Part shown: positions 13,358-38,234 of the stretch, piece by piece
Numbering within the stretch: the first letter of the stretch is position 1
Layout: each line of letters starts with the position of its first letter
Source of the DNA: Methanosarcina vacuolata Z-761
Lineage (GTDB): Archaea; Halobacteriota; Methanosarcinia; Methanosarcinales; Methanosarcinaceae
Assembly: GCF_000969905.1 (NCBI RefSeq)
Contig: NZ_CP009520.1
Coordinates: 3,162,001-3,226,000 of the forward strand
Reading direction: 5' to 3'
Length of the DNA: 64,000 bases
Translations under genes and position numbers: made by a program
The notes under the pieces: model-generated
Database searches by the model: none
What the model was told of the DNA's origin: nothing
Seen by the model: the letters and a program-made list of their open reading frames with translations, nothing else

Positions 13358-14422
13358 TTATTCCTTCTTGCTGTCATGTTTGGTCTGCTTGGAGATATGC
13401 ACGTCCGGGATACGGATTATATTTCCTCTTCCTCTTTTGAATTTCTCAATTAGCCCGCGTTCCTCAAGGTCAGAGAGCATAAGACTGACTTTTGACTCCG
13501 AATAGGGGGATTTTCTTCGTAGTTCTCTCTGGGTGATTCGGTTTCCACTAGCTCGGACCATCTCCAGAAGTTCCTTGAGATCCTCAGGAAGATTGAGCTT
13601 TGAATGTTCCTTAGTTTCAGAACTCGATTTATTAGGCTCCCTCTCATGGAAAGGAAAACTCGATATAGTCTGACCCTCTTCTATAGGCCTTTTCTGCTGT
13701 ATAGGTCTGTCAGTACTGGATGTTCTTTCGAACTTTTCAGCAAACTGCTCAGAGCTCAGTTCCGAAATTTCACTTATGTTTTCTGCTGAATCGGCTGTAT
13801 TTTCGGCTGAGTTGGTTGCGGCCTCTTCAGAAAATATTGCATCCTTTATTGGGTTTTCGGACTCCAACAAATATGGCTCTCGGTAACCTTCAGAAAAAGA
13901 AGGCTTTGCCGATTTTTGATGTTTCTTCCCTAAAAGGTAGGCTGCCAGCAGCAGGGCTAGCATCAGGACTATAAAAACCAGGAAAGCAGGAGCTAAAAAG
14001 GCATAGCTAGAGTTTGCCTGAGACACAGGCTCTTCCTCTTCATAATCCAGATAAGGGGCTTCAAAGTTATCCTGATCCAGAAGCTCTTCATGAGAAGGCG
14101 GGAAAAGGAGGAGATCATGTACATACTCTCCTTCACCTGATACCTCAACCTTTTCCTGAGCCGTATAAATGACCTTATTTCCTTCAAGATAGCTGGCATT
14201 TATTGTATAGGTTCCGGGGGTGAGGTTGAAAGAATACTCTGAATCCGTTGCAATAACGTTCTGTTCCGGGGTAGAATTAATCTCTACAACTGAGTTATTA
14301 AGAGGCTTGAAAGTATCCCACTCATAGACTGTCCCGTGAATTGTGGCCGCGATTGCATTTCCCTGAAAGACCATAATGAGAAAGAAAATAAGTGAGAAAC
14401 TGCATAGCTTTCTAAAATTCAC
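13358..14422 (-). CDS. Membrane-bound one-component regulator with wHTH domain (copy 1)
   Basis: The 354-residue protein has a signal peptide (1-26, ending GNAIA), an extracytoplasmic beta domain of the carboxypeptidase-regulatory/PEGA-like type (about 27-115; ATIHGTVYEWDTFKPLNNSV, then TPGTYTINASYLEG and VHDLLLFP), one TM helix (about 142-167), an acidic low-complexity tether of about 100 residues, and a C-terminal MarR-like winged helix (NRITQRELRRKSPYSESKVS then LSDLEERGLIEKFKRGRGN). The topology puts the sensor outside and the DNA-binding domain inside. The GTG start at 14422 matches the MN(L/F)R start of its paralogues at 34117 and 37284. It is divergent from an exported coiled-coil gene (14639), 216 bases away, which suggests shared control. 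Ligand and targets are unknown. Confidence 0.8.
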   Translation of the reverse strand: MNFRKLCSFSLIFFLIMVFQGNAIAATIHGTVYEWDTFKPLNNSVVEINSTPEQNVIATDSEYSFNLTPGTYTINASYLEGNKVIYTAQEKVEVSGEGEYVHDLLLFPPSHEELLDQDNFEAPYLDYEEEEPVSQANSSYAFLAPAFLVFIVLMLALLLAAYLLGKKHQKSAKPSFSEGYREPYLLESENPIKDAIFSEEAATNSAENTADSAENISEISELSSEQFAEKFERTSSTDRPIQQKRPIEEGQTISSFPFHEREPNKSSSETKEHSKLNLPEDLKELLEMVRASGNRITQRELRRKSPYSESKVSLMLSDLEERGLIEKFKRGRGNIIRIPDVHISKQTKHDSKKE

Positions 14423-14638
14423 GAGATGTTAAATGGGTTTTTAGCATAAATCTTTTACTTTTCTTTGTAAAGAGCTTGTAAAAATAACGCACGCCTATTA
14501 AAGCTTTGTAAAGGAGTCGAGAAATGTATCAAGCTTGAAATCCCATATCTAAGTTTTAATAAGATAAATTCCGAAAAGAATAATTATATTTACTTGATCC
14601 TTATAACGTTGTAATAACTCATAAAGGGAGGAAGTCAG

Positions 14639-15658
14639 ATGAAAAAATCAAGAATTGTTCAAGATCTGGCTTGTTTTACGATTCTATTAACCTTGTTCAG
14701 TTTACTGTCAGGAGGCTCCCTCGCTGCCAGAAACTCTTCTGATCATGTAAACAGCAATCAGAACCAGTATATGCGTGAAGATATTCTCGTTTCATATAAT
14801 GAAACTGACAACGTAAGTGAGAACAACAGTTCTGAATCCAATGTGAAACAAGAGCAAAAGAATCTCAGCACAAAAAACCAGAATAAAGTTTCCGAATACA
14901 AACAGGAAAGAAAACAATTAGAGGAAGAACTCCAGCTTCAGAAACAGGAGTATAATGAAGCAAAAGAAGATTTTCTCAAAATAAGAAACCGCATTCAGGC
15001 AAAAGAACTTGACCCTAACTCCGAAGAGGCTCGAAATGCCACAAAGTCCTACCTTAACTCGAGTATTAACTATATGATAGCTCACCTTGCAAATGTAGAG
15101 AGCAATATGGAATATTCAAACGGGAACAGAACTGACGAAAACGTTATTGCCATAAATGAAAAGATAAAATTGCTTGAAATTGAAAAGGCAAAAGTTGCAA
15201 ACGTGTCAAGCCAGAAAGAGCTTCTGGTTGTGGTCAGGTCTGTGCGTGGGATATGGAATGATGCCGAGAAAATCAGCCTTTCAAGCGCAGGGCAGACTGT
15301 AAGTGAGAAAATCGGAGAATTTCTTGAAAAATCCGAAAACCTCTCGGAAAGACTTAATGTAAAAATTGGGGATATGAAAGAGACCGGCATTGATACATCT
15401 GAACTTGAGATCAAGCTTGCCAGTTACACTTCTTACATAAAATCCGCGCAGGAAAAGAAAGTAATGGCAGATTCCCTATACAGTGGTGAGAATGTAACCC
15501 GGCAAGATATGCAAACTGCGAATAATTACCTTCGTCAGTCACTCACTGATATTAGTAAAGCTAACAAGTTACTCAGAGTAATTTTCGGCGAGCTCAAAAA
15601 TTACGAAACCGAAGAGGATAACGGAACTAAGGTTAGAAACCTAACAACACCTGGATAA
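14639..15658 (+). CDS. Exported coiled-coil protein (partner of membrane wHTH regulator, copy 1)
   Basis: The 339-residue product has a cleavable signal peptide (ILLTLFSLLSGGSLAA, about 14-30), an Asn/Ser-rich stretch, a long charged coiled coil (about 80-135, KQERKQLEEELQLQKQEYNE) and a second helical domain (about 215-325) ending SKANKLLRVIFGELKNYE. That last domain is homologous to the helical part of the lipoprotein at 32908 (MQANNVLRNIFEELNSLM), and both genes lie next to a membrane-bound wHTH regulator. The start has GGGAGGAAG just upstream. No enzyme motif is seen; it may be an extracellular ligand or partner of the regulator's ectodomain (inference). Confidence 0.75.
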   Translation: MKKSRIVQDLACFTILLTLFSLLSGGSLAARNSSDHVNSNQNQYMREDILVSYNETDNVSENNSSESNVKQEQKNLSTKNQNKVSEYKQERKQLEEELQLQKQEYNEAKEDFLKIRNRIQAKELDPNSEEARNATKSYLNSSINYMIAHLANVESNMEYSNGNRTDENVIAINEKIKLLEIEKAKVANVSSQKELLVVVRSVRGIWNDAEKISLSSAGQTVSEKIGEFLEKSENLSERLNVKIGDMKETGIDTSELEIKLASYTSYIKSAQEKKVMADSLYSGENVTRQDMQTANNYLRQSLTDISKANKLLRVIFGELKNYETEEDNGTKVRNLTTPG

Positions 15659-16395: not shown

Positions 16396-16725
16396 TCACT
16401 TAAAAAACATCTTTTCTTTGTTTTTGATTATTTGAATTTCGTCTTCCAGCGTTTCTATCCTGGACTCAAGTTCATGCAGATCTTTTTTAGTAAAGATATT
16501 ATCGGTTTTTGATATAGATTCCTGAATCTTCTCAGAGATTTTCTTCTCAAGATCAAGCTTCTGTTTTTTTCTTTCTTCAAGCATATCCTGGACAGCTTTT
16601 TTGCCTTCTTCCTTACTGATGTCCCCTTTGTCAACAAGTTCCGTTACAAGGTCGTTTATCTTATCTTCGGTTATTGCCCAGAGGCCGGCTCCTATAAGCC
16701 CGAGTTTTCTGACGGATTCCCTCAT
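16396..16725 (-). CDS. Phasin-like coiled-coil protein
   Basis: The 109-residue protein begins MRESVRKLGLIGAGLWAI, a pattern seen in the phasin/polyhydroxyalkanoate-regulator-like family (COG3937 type), followed by EDKINDLVTELVDKGDISKE and a long heptad coiled coil (about 45-105). In this family the N-terminus binds surfaces or membranes and the coiled coil oligomerises. No PHA synthase is in the window, so a granule role is not implied. It could be a general stress protein; its neighbours are Hsp20 and rubrerythrin, on the other strand. Confidence 0.65.
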   Translation of the reverse strand: MRESVRKLGLIGAGLWAITEDKINDLVTELVDKGDISKEEGKKAVQDMLEERKKQKLDLEKKISEKIQESISKTDNIFTKKDLHELESRIETLEDEIQIIKNKEKMFFK

Positions 16726-32378: not shown

Positions 32379-32711
32379 ATGCCTGATAACCCGGAGGAAA
32401 AATTGCTGATTTTGCAGCTTTCCGAAGATTCCAGAAAAATTGCCAGACTTATTTCAAGTGAAACTTCAATCAGAATACTTAAATTGCTTAATAAGAAATC
32501 AATGTCGGCAGGAAACCTTGCCGATGAGCTTGGAGTGCGCCTGAATACTCTCAAATACAATCTGGACTCCCTTCTGGAAGCCGGAATGATTAGAGTAAGG
32601 CACGTAAAATGGAGCCAGAAAGGAAGGGAAATAAAAATTTATGAGGCATCGAAAAAAGTAATTGTTTTTCTGCCCGCAAAAGAGAATGTGGAAACTCCTA
32701 TTTTCATATAA
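32379..32711 (+). CDS. ArsR-like winged-helix transcription regulator
   Basis: The 110-residue cytoplasmic protein has a wHTH domain: SSETSIRILKLLNKKSMSAG for helices 1-2, LADELGVRLNTLKYNLDSLL for the HTH, and the wing MIRVRHVKWSQKGREIKIYE. The pattern of an archaeal ArsR-like repressor is clear; no metal-binding Cys cluster is present, so the signal is not a soft metal bound in the usual ArsR way. It lies 196 bases upstream of the lipoprotein/membrane-regulator pair in the same direction and may control them. Confidence 0.8.
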   Translation: MPDNPEEKLLILQLSEDSRKIARLISSETSIRILKLLNKKSMSAGNLADELGVRLNTLKYNLDSLLEAGMIRVRHVKWSQKGREIKIYEASKKVIVFLPAKENVETPIFI

Positions 32712-32907
32712 AGTCCGAGTAAGACAACATATAAAATATTAAGGAGTAATAACCCCCAAAATTGTTCTGAAGTTAATTCCCGACTTCAGTGTTTCGGAAC
32801 GATTCTATTCTGAGAAAGACTTTTAAAAATAACCAAATATTAATATACGAACTCGATTAAAAGATACAGTCCAGCAATGAGTTCTATTCCGTAGGACGTG
32901 GCCCAGT

Positions 32908-33978
32908 ATGAAAATCAAATTTTTGTCCTTGCTCCTTATAATAGCAGCCATTATCGTGATCTCAGGCTGTGTTGATGAGGAGGCTCAGGGCTTTAATGGT
33001 AAAGCTCAAGAAGATCTAGCTAGGACTATTTTTTTCCCTTATGTAGGGCTCCTGGACCATGGGGAATCTGAAATACCAGGCTCATACCCCCATGAGTTAC
33101 CTCCAGATAAGTTTAATTCAGATCCTGATATCCATACGCTAAAAGATGCAACATCCCTTCTTGACAGAAACATCGAAAAAGCAGAAACGATTTCATTAAA
33201 GCTTGAAACCGGAATTGAGCGCTACAAAGCAGAAGGAGAAGATGTTAGCAGACTTGAAACCCTGCTTGAAGAGTATAACCGTCTTATAAATGAAGCAAAG
33301 CAGTATCGAGCCCTTGCAAATGCAACCTCAGGCGGAGAAAATAACAGCTCAATCGCGAATTCGAGTCAATATAATGGTTCATCCGAAAATATAAAAGTAG
33401 ATTATTTGGTTCAGTCTCAGAAGAGTATGATGCAAGCTAATAATGTCCTGAGAAATATTTTCGAGGAACTTAACTCCTTAATGGGAAGTGAAGAACTCAA
33501 CAATACATCCCGGCTTATTTCGGCAGGAGAAGGAAAAGCTATTCTTATGGGCAATTTTACCCTGAATATGCACCTGGAAAACGGAGAAATGGTAATAATG
33601 GGCCTTTCTAAGGATTCCGAGATAGATATAAATGGGGATTATACATTTGAGGAAAATACCGACACGCATGATACAGTGCGCCTTTACCATATAAATTCTG
33701 CCGATGTGAAGATATCCGGTTCCCGTAAGACAGTAATGTTAAACAATGAAAACATTACTCTCACTGCAGATGGCGAGGGTTATGTAGCTTTCCAGGGAGA
33801 CGGCACCTATAGTGTTGAAGAGGCAGGCAGAGTAATAAAAGAAGATGAATGGGCGAAACCTTTCTTTGAAGAAGTAATGAATCCCCAAAAGCATGGGCCT
33901 GACGAAAAGTACAATAATACCGGATATGGGCCTGATAAGAATAACAATGGTATAGTAATCGGGCAAGGAAGAATATGA
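32908..33978 (+). CDS. Exported coiled-coil lipoprotein (partner of membrane wHTH regulator, copy 2)
   Basis: The 356-residue protein has a lipoprotein signal peptide (lipobox VISGC, Cys near residue 21). Next comes a helical domain (about 75-195; KLETGIERYKAEGEDVSRLE, then QKSMMQANNVLRNIFEELNS) homologous to the end of the exported protein at 14639. Last is a beta-rich C-terminal domain (about 205-315; GKAILMGNFTLNMHLENGEM, SADVKISGSRKTVMLNNENI) of beta-helix or lipocalin-like look. The tail is Asn/Gly-rich. It lies 90 bases upstream of a membrane-bound wHTH regulator and is probably co-transcribed. Extracellular membrane-anchored location; no enzymatic motif. Confidence 0.75.
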   Translation: MKIKFLSLLLIIAAIIVISGCVDEEAQGFNGKAQEDLARTIFFPYVGLLDHGESEIPGSYPHELPPDKFNSDPDIHTLKDATSLLDRNIEKAETISLKLETGIERYKAEGEDVSRLETLLEEYNRLINEAKQYRALANATSGGENNSSIANSSQYNGSSENIKVDYLVQSQKSMMQANNVLRNIFEELNSLMGSEELNNTSRLISAGEGKAILMGNFTLNMHLENGEMVIMGLSKDSEIDINGDYTFEENTDTHDTVRLYHINSADVKISGSRKTVMLNNENITLTADGEGYVAFQGDGTYSVEEAGRVIKEDEWAKPFFEEVMNPQKHGPDEKYNNTGYGPDKNNNGIVIGQGRI

Positions 33979-34068: not shown

Positions 34069-35457
34069 ATGCCTGGAAAAATTGAAAATCAATATACAAC
34101 TCTGGGTTTATCGAAAATGAATCTAAGGCTCTATATTATTTGTATCGCTACCGTACTTGCTTTAGCAGGACCTGCTTTAGCAGATAGTACGGCCAATGTT
34201 CACGGGACGGCATACAGATGGGATACCTTCGAGCCTCTAGATAATGCAGTGGTCGAGGTAAATTCTACTCCCTCACAGTCCATGGTAGCGAAATACGGTG
34301 TGTATTCTTTTGATCTGATACCCGGAGATTATAATATTACAGCCGATTACTATGAGAACAGCAGTGTTAAATATTCAACAAGTGAGATTATTACAGTTAA
34401 AGACCAAGGAAAATATTTACTCGATCTCCTGCTCTTCCCAGTTTATTCGGAAGAACTCATGGGCGACTCCAAACTAAATGGATATTCCGAAGACCAGAAC
34501 GGGACTGCAAAAAGCTCTTCTAATACAACAAATTCGCTAACAGACACATCCACAGGTCCGACGACAAGTAAAAGTAATTCTAGCAGCATGGATCTGGCTG
34601 ACCAAAACATAACTGGCAATATAAATGCAAATTACCTGTTGATAGCAGCTCTTTTACTTTTTATCCTGCTTTCAGCAGGCTACCAGGTATCCAGAAAGGA
34701 TAAAAAACCAGAGAAAAATCAGCCTTTAAAAAGTGCACATAAAATCTCAGGCATCGGAGCAGATGAAAAAGGACATACTACGGGAGGTTTTATCAAACCA
34801 GTTAAGGTGCCCGAAATCTCGGTAGAAGTCCATGATGGAAGGGTAGAAGTCCCTCAAGAAAGCTTAGAGCCCGAGCTAAAACAGGAGTATCAGGCACAGG
34901 AATCTCAGGTAAAGCCCCTCGAAGCTGCACCTTCAACAGGACCAATAGTAAATCCTGTAGAAGAGCCTGTGACAGAGGCTGTAAAGGAATCTCTACAAGA
35001 TCCTGTAAAAGAATCAATAAAAGAACCTGTGAATGAACAGATAAAGCCGGTAGTAACAGCATTATCACCTAGAATCCCGGAAGAAAAAGGTCAGGAAGAC
35101 TGTGAAGAAATTAAAGTGGACTCTCAGGAGAACGAAATAAAACTGGTTGAATCTGAGCCTCAAAAAGAGAAACAGGAAACCGTCTCTGAAGAAGCTGCTG
35201 ATAAACCCACAGAGAGTCCCGAAACTGAAACTACTGCTTTCAAAAAGAAGCTCCCTCTTCCCGCAGACCTTCAGGAAGTCATGGATATAATTCGAGGCCA
35301 GGGAGGCAGGATTACACAGAAGGACTTGCGCAGCAAACTGAAGTACTCCGAAGGAAAAGTTAGCCTCATGCTTGCAGACCTGGAAAGAAGAGAATTGATT
35401 GAGAAGTTCAAGCGAGGGCGTGGAAATGTTGTTATCCTAAGAGATGAGGAACGCTGA
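34069..35457 (+). CDS. Membrane-bound one-component regulator with wHTH domain (copy 2)
   Basis: The 462-residue protein has the layout of the paralogue at 13358: signal peptide, beta ectodomain (ANVHGTAYRWDTFEPLDNAV; IPGDYNITADYYENS; LLDLLLFP), a Ser/Thr/Asn-rich stalk, one TM helix (NYLLIAALLLFILLSAGYQV), a very long acidic/Pro tether (about 190 residues, with VKESIKEPVNE-like repeats) and a C-terminal wHTH (GRITQKDLRSKLKYSEGKVS, DLERRELIEKFKRGRGN). ATG 34069 follows AGGAG by 10 bases; ATG 34117 (MNLRLYIIC) matches the starts of the paralogues. It sits directly behind its presumed lipoprotein partner. Confidence 0.8.
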   Translation: MPGKIENQYTTLGLSKMNLRLYIICIATVLALAGPALADSTANVHGTAYRWDTFEPLDNAVVEVNSTPSQSMVAKYGVYSFDLIPGDYNITADYYENSSVKYSTSEIITVKDQGKYLLDLLLFPVYSEELMGDSKLNGYSEDQNGTAKSSSNTTNSLTDTSTGPTTSKSNSSSMDLADQNITGNINANYLLIAALLLFILLSAGYQVSRKDKKPEKNQPLKSAHKISGIGADEKGHTTGGFIKPVKVPEISVEVHDGRVEVPQESLEPELKQEYQAQESQVKPLEAAPSTGPIVNPVEEPVTEAVKESLQDPVKESIKEPVNEQIKPVVTALSPRIPEEKGQEDCEEIKVDSQENEIKLVESEPQKEKQETVSEEAADKPTESPETETTAFKKKLPLPADLQEVMDIIRGQGGRITQKDLRSKLKYSEGKVSLMLADLERRELIEKFKRGRGNVVILRDEER

Positions 35458-35524: not shown

Positions 35525-36330
35525 GTATCACAGGAGATTCCAGAGGAAAAAACATATTGAGGCCATTCCAAAACCAACTTTATTCTCAAAACTATAAAAT
35601 TTTCAGAATTGTTTTCATTATCCGAAGATCAAATAATAATCACAAATTAAGGGATCTGTAATTTAATTCTGTCAATGTCCATGTCTTCTTAGTAATTTCG
35701 GATTCCTGTGCAGACATCTTTTTTTCGACTGTTTTCCTTGAGATTCTATTGTTATCCTGTCTGAAAGTCAAATTTTGTCTTTCGAGTTTTATTATAGTTT
35801 TTTTGAACTGGAAGCCACAGTTAACCAGTATAAGCTGTGAAAAACCGGTATTTTAATTGAATCTCATAAAAAAGGGTTTTTACTATCCTGATATAAATTT
35901 TACGGAGTATACCAAGTTTAATATTAAATTAAAGCTTTAAAAATAATTATTTTATTAATTTAACAGTTTTCAAGCCAGGCATATTATAAGTATACTTATA
36001 TTTAATCCGGCCAATATTAGAATTGTCAGTTAATATCTACCGGTAAAACAGTTAGGCAATTTCTTCCAGAGCTGAGAGATCAAGTAGAGTGAGATATCAG
36101 GTAGAAATTGCATACGCATGAAGATCTCAAGTTAGCTTAGCAATTCAAGTTAGCTTAACAATTAATTTCATGTTGGGGAGTTTAAAAAAGAGTTCAGGCT
36201 GGTGAATTTAAGTATCGAGTTCAGGGGGGAGTATAGGGAGTTTAAAAATTGAATTAAGGTTGGGGGTTTAAGGATTCTTTTCACACACATATAAATTATT
36301 TTTTCAATCAAACAGGTCAGGAGTTAATTT
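35525..36330. other. Long AT-rich intergenic region
   Basis: No gene found. It contains a 17-base direct repeat CAAGTTAGCTTAGCAATT (about 36128-36162), loose repeats of GGGAGTTTAAAAA (36176-36270) and a TATA-like ACATATAAATTATTTT (36286) that is the likely promoter of the next gene. Confidence 0.45.
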
Positions 36331-36666
36331 ATGGTAAATACAAAATTTGATAGATTAAAAAAGATTTGTGCCGTTTTTCTGGTACTTTGCTTTGTATTAT
36401 CAGTAACGGCTGCAGCAGCAAGCGCAGCTGACAATAGCAAGAATAAAGATGGATACAGAGACGGTTATAAAAAAGGCTATGGAGATGGCAGAAAACAGGG
36501 TGAAAAAGATTGCAATAAATATGGCAGCAAAGATGCCCTCTCAAAAATACCTTCTCCACCAAATGATAAAAGAGAGAACAAAAAATACAAAGACAGTTAT
36601 AGTAGAGGGTATCAAAAAGGATACATCGAAGGTTACAATGGATATAGGTATACGTGCCTGAAATAA
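36331..36666 (+). CDS. Small secreted protein with GY-rich repeats
   Basis: The 111-residue product has a signal peptide (about 1-33, cleavage after ASA). The mature 78 residues carry repeats of the form DGYxxGYxxG: DGYRDGYKKGYGDGRKQGEK near the start and SYSRGYQKGYIEGYNGYRY near the end. One Cys lies in each half, possibly a disulfide. Such basic Tyr/Gly repeats resemble GYxxGY modules in surface or lectin-like proteins, but no known family can be named. It lies between two membrane-bound wHTH regulators. Confidence 0.7.
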   Translation: MVNTKFDRLKKICAVFLVLCFVLSVTAAAASAADNSKNKDGYRDGYKKGYGDGRKQGEKDCNKYGSKDALSKIPSPPNDKRENKKYKDSYSRGYQKGYIEGYNGYRYTCLK

Positions 36667-37283: not shown

Positions 37284-38234
37284 ATGAATTTGAGGTTCTA
37301 CATTCTGTGTATTGCTGCTCTACTCGCTTTAGGGATATCTCCTACTTCAGGAGTACCTTTCTTAGCAGATAGCAACATCACTGCAACAATCCACGGGGCA
37401 ACATATGCATGGGACACTCTTGAACCCCTAAATGATACTGTAATTAGTATCAATTCCAATCCTCCTCAATCAGTACTGGCAAAAAACGGCATGTATTCCT
37501 TTGAACTCGGGCCCGGAGACTACGTTATTACAGCCAGGTATTACCGGAACAACACTGTAGTCTATTCAAAAGAAACAACTCTGAAGATTGAAGAGGAAGG
37601 AAACTATGTCTTCGACCTCCTGCTTTATCCGGTCTCCGAAAATCCGGTAAAGGAAAAAGCCGAAGACAAAATAAGTAATGTCAATAATGTAAATAGTGTT
37701 AATCCCACCGAAAAAGCCAGAACTGACCTTTTTACTGTAAGCTTCCTGCCAGTAGCCTTTATGGTTCTTTTTCTGCTTGGCGGAAGTTATAAACTATCCA
37801 GAAAGCAAAAAACGATGAAAATAAACAGGTTTCAGGAAGGGAAGTTCTATGCATCCGGGATTCTGGCAAATGCCCTCGCTAGAATCCCTGGTTCTGGAGT
37901 GAAGCTGGAGTTCGAAAACGCCCCGGAGGCCTCATCAAAAGAGCCGGTAATAGAGCCTGGAGAAACAGAAATAGAAATTGCAGATAATTCCAAAATCGAG
38001 CCTGCTGATTTAAGAAAAGCTCCTCTTACTAAGGATCTCCGGGAAGTCCTGGATGTGATTAGGGGCCACAGGGGTAGAATTACGCAAAAGGATCTGCGCA
38101 GCAGGTTGGAGTATTCCGAAGTAAAAGTCAGCCTCATGCTTTCAGAGCTGGAAAAGAGAGGACTGATTAAGAAGTTCAAGCATGGGCGTGAGAATATTGT
38201 GATTTTAACAGACGATGAGCGAAAGGGAAGCTAA
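37284..38234 (+). CDS. Membrane-bound one-component regulator with wHTH domain (copy 3)
   Basis: The 316-residue paralogue of the proteins at 13358 and 34069 has a signal peptide, beta ectodomain (ATIHGATYAWDTLEPLNDTV; GPGDYVITARYYRNN; VFDLLLYP), TM helix (SFLPVAFMVLFLLGGSYKL), the shortest tether of the three (about 75-80 residues) and a C-terminal wHTH (GRITQKDLRSRLEYSEVKVS; ELEKRGLIKKFKHGRENI). The ATG follows only a weak GGTAGAG. Unlike copies 1 and 2 it has no coiled-coil partner beside it; the GY-repeat secreted protein is its nearest upstream neighbour. Confidence 0.8.
   Translation: MNLRFYILCIAALLALGISPTSGVPFLADSNITATIHGATYAWDTLEPLNDTVISINSNPPQSVLAKNGMYSFELGPGDYVITARYYRNNTVVYSKETTLKIEEEGNYVFDLLLYPVSENPVKEKAEDKISNVNNVNSVNPTEKARTDLFTVSFLPVAFMVLFLLGGSYKLSRKQKTMKINRFQEGKFYASGILANALARIPGSGVKLEFENAPEASSKEPVIEPGETEIEIADNSKIEPADLRKAPLTKDLREVLDVIRGHRGRITQKDLRSRLEYSEVKVSLMLSELEKRGLIKKFKHGRENIVILTDDERKGS

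Follow-up and report, generated by a model that had tools for sequence, protein, structure and literature searches.

The window analysed here is a 64,000-nt stretch of Methanosarcina vacuolata Z-761 (NZ_CP009520.1, positions 3,162,001-3,226,000), and coordinates below are window positions unless a locus is named. It carries three paralogous genes for transmembrane winged helix-turn-helix (wHTH) regulators, R1-R3, and two genes for exported proteins, E1 and E2, as follows:

13358-14422, minus strand: R1, transmembrane wHTH regulator of 354 aa (ORF; DUF7343, E-value = 1.2e-14; AlphaFold2 model; fold match)
13412-13585, minus strand: DUF7343 winged helix of R1, residues 280-337 (PF24034; pLDDT 95-98; Foldseek winged-helix match)
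13922-13996, minus strand: predicted membrane helix of R1, residues 143-167, followed by basic residues (hydropathy peak 2.98; AlphaFold2 helix)
14099-14347, minus strand: ectodomain of R1, residues 26-108, transthyretin-like/carboxypeptidase regulatory-like fold (pLDDT ~93-97; Foldseek; Pfam)
14639-15658, plus strand: E1, exported helical protein of 339 aa, divergent to R1 (ORF; helical-domain searches)
15287-15613, plus strand: shared helical domain of E1 (BLASTP to E2; helical-domain search)
32908-33978, plus strand: E2, exported lipoprotein of 356 aa with a helical domain and a C-terminal beta domain (ORF; AlphaFold2 model)
33130-33483, plus strand: three-helix domain of E2, residues 75-192 (pLDDT mostly 86-98 except for a loop at ~141-160)
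33487-33849, plus strand: beta domain of E2, residues 194-314 (confident AlphaFold2 model)
34117-35457, plus strand: R2, transmembrane wHTH regulator whose gene follows E2 directly (longest ORF from 34069; DUF7343, E-value = 2.2e-15; start by alignment)
37284-38234, plus strand: R3, transmembrane wHTH regulator of 316 aa, R2 clade (ORF; DUF7343, E-value = 9.2e-17; tree)

A first-pass annotation made from the sequence alone had placed these genes and their conserved motifs, and the ORFs agree with it throughout except for the start of R2. R2 probably starts at 34117 and not at 34069, as an MNLR at the later position aligns with the starts of the other R proteins.

All three regulators match the Pfam domain DUF7343 (PF24034) with 54.3, 56.7 and 61.1 bits for R1, R2 and R3, respectively, above the gathering cut-off of 27.6. 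Each has an N-terminal export signal and one more transmembrane segment, with hydropathy peaks of 2.2-3.0 between ectodomain and tether, giving the domain order signal, ectodomain, membrane segment and C-terminal wHTH behind a long tether. The AlphaFold2 model of R1, which like our other models was built on an alignment of relatives, has a beta domain (26-108), a helix (143-167), a disordered tether and a winged helix (280-337), in that order. In Foldseek searches the winged helix resembles both archaeal and bacterial winged helices, and the ectodomain matches the transthyretin-like (TTL) domains of carboxypeptidases N/D with a probability of 1.0; its sequence reaches Pfam PF13620 with an E-value of 0.0012, which is below the cut-off, and has no convincing match among PDB sequence profiles. 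When R1-R3 are aligned, residues of the ectodomain and the wHTH are invariant while the membrane segment and tether vary, the tether being very different in length, in keeping with the conserved ends and free middle described in the first-pass annotation. Since basic residues follow the membrane helix of R1, the usual topology rule predicts that the winged helix lies on the cytoplasmic side of the membrane and not outside the cell. Pfam and NCBIfam searches found no histidine kinase or receiver domain in R1-R3, E1 or E2, so the architecture supports the earlier proposal of a route without a kinase, with a sensor outside and a wHTH inside.

E1 carries a signal peptide and E2 a lipobox (VISGC). 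They have ~100 residues in common (BLASTP E-value = 3e-8), as expected from the claim that both contain the same helical domain, and the domain ends quoted for them were right (MQANNVLRNIFEELNSLM in E2 and SKANKLLRVIFGELKNYE in E1). The beta domain is present in E2 and absent from Methanosarcina E1; in other genera, long E proteins combine both domains with an N-terminal part. Beside R at one locus (L194, 3342-4815), two adjacent genes encode the helical and the beta domain separately, which shows that these are separable parts of one system. Searches of Pfam and NCBIfam with E proteins gave just weak coiled-coil noise, no convincing match appeared among PDB sequence profiles, and the E2 model has no PDB fold match (best Foldseek E-value = 5.8e-3, probability 0.09). 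The E2 leader (32840-32907) is conserved in Methanosarcina (GTCCAG...GGACGTGGCCCAG-ATG) and, unlike that of E1, lacks an ordinary GGAGG ribosome-binding site. Downstream of E1, a phasin-like protein (16396-16725; PF05597, at the curated cut-off) lies beside a small lipoprotein-like gene.

We searched 112 family genomes independently with the ectodomain and with the helical domain, obtaining at least 150 matches with each. Among the 150 E matches listed, found by a search made without knowledge of R, at least 112 lie within 6 kb of an R match, and the 112 paired E among these listed matches take only two layouts: 75 are divergent and 37 have E upstream and codirectional, with none convergent and none with E downstream. 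Several E places that had seemed unpaired proved to be paired once their DNA was read. The 80 named loci taken from GTDB genomes contain 82 R genes, of which 66 adjoin E (45 divergent, 21 codirectional, none with E downstream), and about half of the R genes in these loci that have no neighbouring E are near contig ends. Across 295 genomes of the phylum, R occurs in 99, E in 88 and both in 81. The pair is found in Methanosarcina, Methanolobus, Methanococcoides, Methanomethylovorans, ANME-3, Methanoperedens and Argoarchaeum, and further in some Archaeoglobi, in Candidatus Pyrohabitans (Hydrothermarchaeota) and in records labelled Diapherotrites; in many Archaeoglobi, R and E are at different places. 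The pairing is thus far beyond chance, and the recurrence on which the first-pass annotation had staked its reading extends to nearly all Methanosarcina genomes. In the distant family f14, an exported-protein gene lies directly downstream of R (L208, 5904-6761) and is a possible further partner; we take its product to resemble DUF5667 proteins.

Neighbourhood of this kind might also reflect inheritance without any functional bond, and R1 does have other conserved neighbours in Methanosarcinaceae, namely genes for an ACT-domain protein and homoserine dehydrogenase. These flanking genes are kept inside Methanosarcinaceae only; outside it the flanks change and R-E stays, so the bond between R and E is more specific than general synteny. 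We rejected plain synteny on this ground and consider it very improbable, given also that two separate layouts are kept, that the pair has duplicated together and that a phased promoter element is common to the E genes (both described below).

In trees of both R and E, 22 of 23 codirectional pairs fall in one clade that contains no divergent ones, with support of 0.54 in the R tree and 0.95 in the E tree. As the two trees split alike, the R-E pair has duplicated as a unit. R3 and its orthologues fall inside the codirectional R clade, and R3 is a later copy that now stands behind a different exported gene:

36331-36666, plus strand: X, small exported protein of 111 aa with GYxxGY repeats, upstream of R3 (ORF)

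The first-pass annotation had paired E1 with R1 and E2 with R2, which holds, and had left R3 without a partner, which does not, because the short X ORF is conserved upstream of R3 in Methanosarcina loci (tblastn). An ArsR/HTH_20-like cytoplasmic regulator is encoded directly upstream of E2 (32379-32711), which adds another transcription factor to the E2-R2-X-R3 cluster; in other Methanosarcina loci, too, E2 is preceded by an ORF of about this size and position.

In 21 Methanosarcina loci, the intergenic DNA between the divergent genes contains conserved blocks apart from the promoters. A palindromic model recovered an AAGCTT-centred palindrome, well above shuffles, in Methanosarcina and in other taxa, and in the R-E intergenic DNA of Methanosarcina loci AAGCTT occurs at 16 times the density seen in the remaining intergenic regions of those loci. 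We described the palindrome with a 14-bp position weight matrix (PWM; consensus core TAAAGCTTTA). Trained on Methanosarcinaceae, the matrix found sites of at least 11 bits in 11 of 17 distant loci vs 2 of 121 control intergenics, and trained on other genera it found sites in 19 of 21 Methanosarcina. In the window, the elements and their promoters are:

14497-14510, no strand assigned: palindromic element ATTAAAGCTTTGTA, centred at a distance of 82 bp from the TATA box of E1 (13.1 bits, PWM from other genera)
14527-14540, no strand assigned: second palindromic element TATCAAGCTTGAAA, 30 bp nearer, ~52 bp from TATA (9.9 bits; block conserved in 21 Methanosarcina loci)
14573-14589, plus strand: E1 promoter GAAAAGAATAATTATAT, BRE/TATA type (best promoter-PWM match on the plus strand of the window, 17.2 bits; conserved)
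35928-35941, no strand assigned: palindromic element ATTAAAGCTTTAAA, with a TATA box 63 bp away (PWM and composite-pattern scans)
35985-36001, plus strand: promoter TATAAGTATACTTATAT, E1-promoter type (15.7 bits, second best on the plus strand of the window)

Between the last of these promoters and the X gene lies a leader of ~330 bases (36001-36331), and most other Methanosarcina R3 loci likewise have a similar promoter far upstream of R3.

No shared palindrome or single motif was found upstream of R3 itself or of unlinked R genes, from which we predicted that the element belongs to the E promoter, and this prediction was then tested on E genes that are not linked to R. Most of these genes, which come mainly from Archaeoglobi, have a site of at least 9 bits (13 of 19, mostly 70-110 bp before the start codon), compared with 11 of 88 control upstreams, some of which share the same intergenic DNA. 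The Archaeoglobi R genes that stand apart from E lack the element, so autoregulation is not general. The first-pass annotation had offered the exported protein as ligand, cofactor or target, and of these only the role of target gained direct evidence, from a palindrome that is conserved and helically phased in E promoters, also where E is far from R. The element is not universal: a combined palindrome/promoter call is absent from 41 of 100 E-promoter clusters, the element is absent from the two f20 genomes that have R and E, and no recognisable element was found in the Methanosarcina E2 promoter, although R2 adjoins E2. A third E paralogue without an adjoining R lies elsewhere in the same genome (L139, 3049-4212, at ~614 kb), and has no recognisable palindrome upstream.

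These results also bear on whether E is primarily a target of R or a part of the receptor. In the latter case E would be the essential extracellular half of the sensor, binding and stabilising or activating the R ectodomain, and its transcription would be secondary. Bacterial precedent exists for such co-component receptors (PMC9214523), associated proteins appear in Table 1 of PMC10269533, and persistent pairing, joint duplication and correlated R and E trees (mirror-tree rho 0.79 for divergent pairs) would all fit, although a correlation of trees is also expected from shared species history. However, unlinked Archaeoglobi E genes keep the promoter element, which their status as targets explains directly, R3, which belongs to the R2 clade, follows the gene of an unrelated exported protein, the domain order of R is the reverse of that in ToxR/VtrA, and E is neither downstream nor lipocalin-like. 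We therefore regard a co-component receptor as unlikely, if well worth keeping in mind.

The spacing between palindrome and promoter was strikingly regular. The E promoters have a strong common motif, gAAAAGTATGcTTATAT, and with a promoter PWM retrained on all promoters the distances from palindrome centre to TATA were 31, 41-42, 51-53, 61-63, 71-73, 81-83, 91 and 94 bp. All 59 non-redundant promoters lie no more than 1.5 bp off a 10.25-bp lattice (Rayleigh R = 0.93), with much lower values for periods of 8 bp (0.10), 9 bp (0.33) and 12 bp (0.18); the promoters are phylogenetically related, so that nominal p-values overstate their independence. When the upstream DNA was shuffled, each set retained 2.6 sites. 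Ten additional site-bearing E promoters, which had stood outside the training of the palindrome PWM, were all in phase (10/10). Lineages thus differ in the number of helical turns and keep the same face of the helix. Upstream of E at two loci (L341 and L201), two or three palindromes follow one another in phase at intervals of 10 bp, which suggests that dimers are stacked at some E promoters.

A fixed phase at 31-83 bp upstream of TATA would fit a contact with TBP, TFB or polymerase, and on that basis we prefer activation as the effect of the bound regulator. MarR/ArsR-like wHTH folds are often repressors, and R could in principle repress E until released by an envelope signal. Sites 31 to 83 bp from TATA are mostly clear of BRE/TATA and the start site, however, and a steric block would account less well for a fixed phase to TATA than would contact with the basal machinery, so repression seems to us improbable.

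We then asked where this arrangement occurs in the M. vacuolata genome with a composite pattern (AAAGNTTT, 8 to 69 bases, AAGWATNNTTATA), which has five matches in 4.56 Mb and none for the reversed control. All five sites precede genes for exported proteins, namely E1, X (upstream of R3), a PKD-like protein, a Cys-rich protein and one short protein, and a sixth site with a spacing of 93 precedes another exported Cys-rich protein. The unfiltered palindrome TAAAGCTTTAT is not specific alone, as it occurs at 13 places in the genome, several of them inside genes; a control palindrome of the same composition occurs at 6 places, none with an E-type promoter. Occurrence before other exported-protein genes, together with absence from unlinked R genes, would suit a palindrome that serves some other regulator acting on envelope genes in general, with R and E as just two genes of that neighbourhood and the bond between them existing at the level of protein. 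Two of the five composite sites are in the loci of R paralogues (R1 and R3), though, which ties the element to R beyond the pairing with E alone. Further, the E genes of three genomes in which no R was detected (L334-L336) lack the element, with the caveat that these E genes are downstream of other genes and that two of the genomes are incomplete. A separate regulator is, in our estimation, rather unlikely.

Taken together, we think it probable that R is a membrane-tethered one-component factor which binds phased palindromes and activates E and a few other exported proteins, forming a loop of envelope homeostasis. By prediction, R runs from an extracellular transthyretin-like domain through a single membrane helix and a long flexible tether to a cytoplasmic DUF7343 winged helix. 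Dimers of R may bind palindromes of the TAAAGCTTTA type, which are placed an integral number of helical turns before the BRE/TATA of E promoters, and bound R would recruit or stabilise the basal transcription machinery and so allow production of E and a few other exported proteins. Conditions at the cell surface, plausibly with E among them, would be reported by the extracellular domain, and the pair could in this way form a loop of envelope homeostasis; binding of E to the R ectodomain is a guess on our part. It is also possible, and to our minds just short of evenly balanced, that this represents an ancient archaeal surface-to-DNA system of Methanosarcinia, Archaeoglobi and Hydrothermarchaeota, in which a tethered wHTH drives an exported regulon including E through phased palindromes and E feeds back.

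How information passes from the archaeal cell surface to genes is poorly known, and few archaeal transmembrane regulators have been studied. The module described here brings together, in a genus open to genetics, a proposed receptor and its partner, a predicted operator that obeys a strict spacing rule and a predicted regulon of five genes, and it makes directly testable whether archaeal promoters can be activated from the membrane by a protein in phased contact with the basal machinery. It also provides a testable role for a Pfam domain of unknown function and for an exported protein family that has no Pfam entry, and the conservation of R-E across distant archaeal relatives over very long times, together with a promoter element kept at whole helical turns, points to a simple and to our knowledge undescribed route from surface to genes.

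The first-pass annotation knew of no such system in archaea. In the literature searched we likewise met no account of such an archaeal pair, nothing on DUF7343 and, among papers containing the string AAAGCTTT, none about an archaeal operator, judging by titles and abstracts; membrane-bound one-component regulators as a class, however, are established in both bacteria and archaea (PMC10269533), and an exported partner has bacterial precedents in ToxR/ToxS and VtrA/VtrC (PMC9214523). The Pfam entry PF24034, which matches the winged helix of R, names the domain only and says nothing of an ectodomain, partner or element. The M14 carboxypeptidase transthyretin-like domain (PF13620) has the same fold as the R ectodomain, with R below its Pfam sequence cut-off, and in R it would be put to a receptor-like use. 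Bacteria and archaea commonly have transmembrane transcription regulators (TTRs; Demey et al. 2023, PMC10269533), and R, with a predicted DNA-binding domain, a predicted membrane region and a candidate site for control of transcription from the membrane, is predicted to be one by the published definition. Like other TTRs, R would combine a DNA-binding domain and at least one transmembrane region in one protein, with an extracytoplasmic sensor and no kinase; it differs from the TTRs of that review in its C-terminal wHTH behind a long tether, its exported partner and its predicted cis element. The only archaeal entry among the characterised TTRs of Table 1 in PMC10269533 is ArnR, for which no associated protein is listed. 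R resembles ArnR/ArnR1 of Sulfolobus acidocaldarius (PMC6396743) as an archaeal membrane-bound one-component regulator, ArnR having surface structures as its targets, but the HTH of ArnR is N-terminal (PMC13286277) and that of R C-terminal, and none of R1-R3 matches the NCBIfam ArnR model (NF041016) at E-values up to 1. Comparable in organisation are ToxR/ToxS and VtrA/VtrC, bacterial co-component systems with exported or periplasmic partners (Kinch et al. 2022, PMC9214523), which like R-E are two-gene cassettes of a membrane-tethered wHTH factor and such a partner that evolution has kept together. ToxR and VtrA, however, run from an N-terminal HTH through the membrane to a periplasmic domain, whereas R runs from signal and ectodomain through the membrane to the wHTH. 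The ToxS/VtrC gene lies downstream in the same direction, whereas E is divergent or upstream, with E downstream in none of the at least 112 listed pairs or the 66 named-locus pairs, and partners of the VtrC/ToxS type are lipocalin-like, whereas the E2 model combines a three-helix and a beta domain. Since R-E thus departs from three defining features (domain order, position of the partner and a lipocalin-like partner), we do not file it as a co-component system. What was already known is the class of transmembrane transcription regulators, and what is new is an archaeal two-gene system with a phased palindrome in the E promoter.
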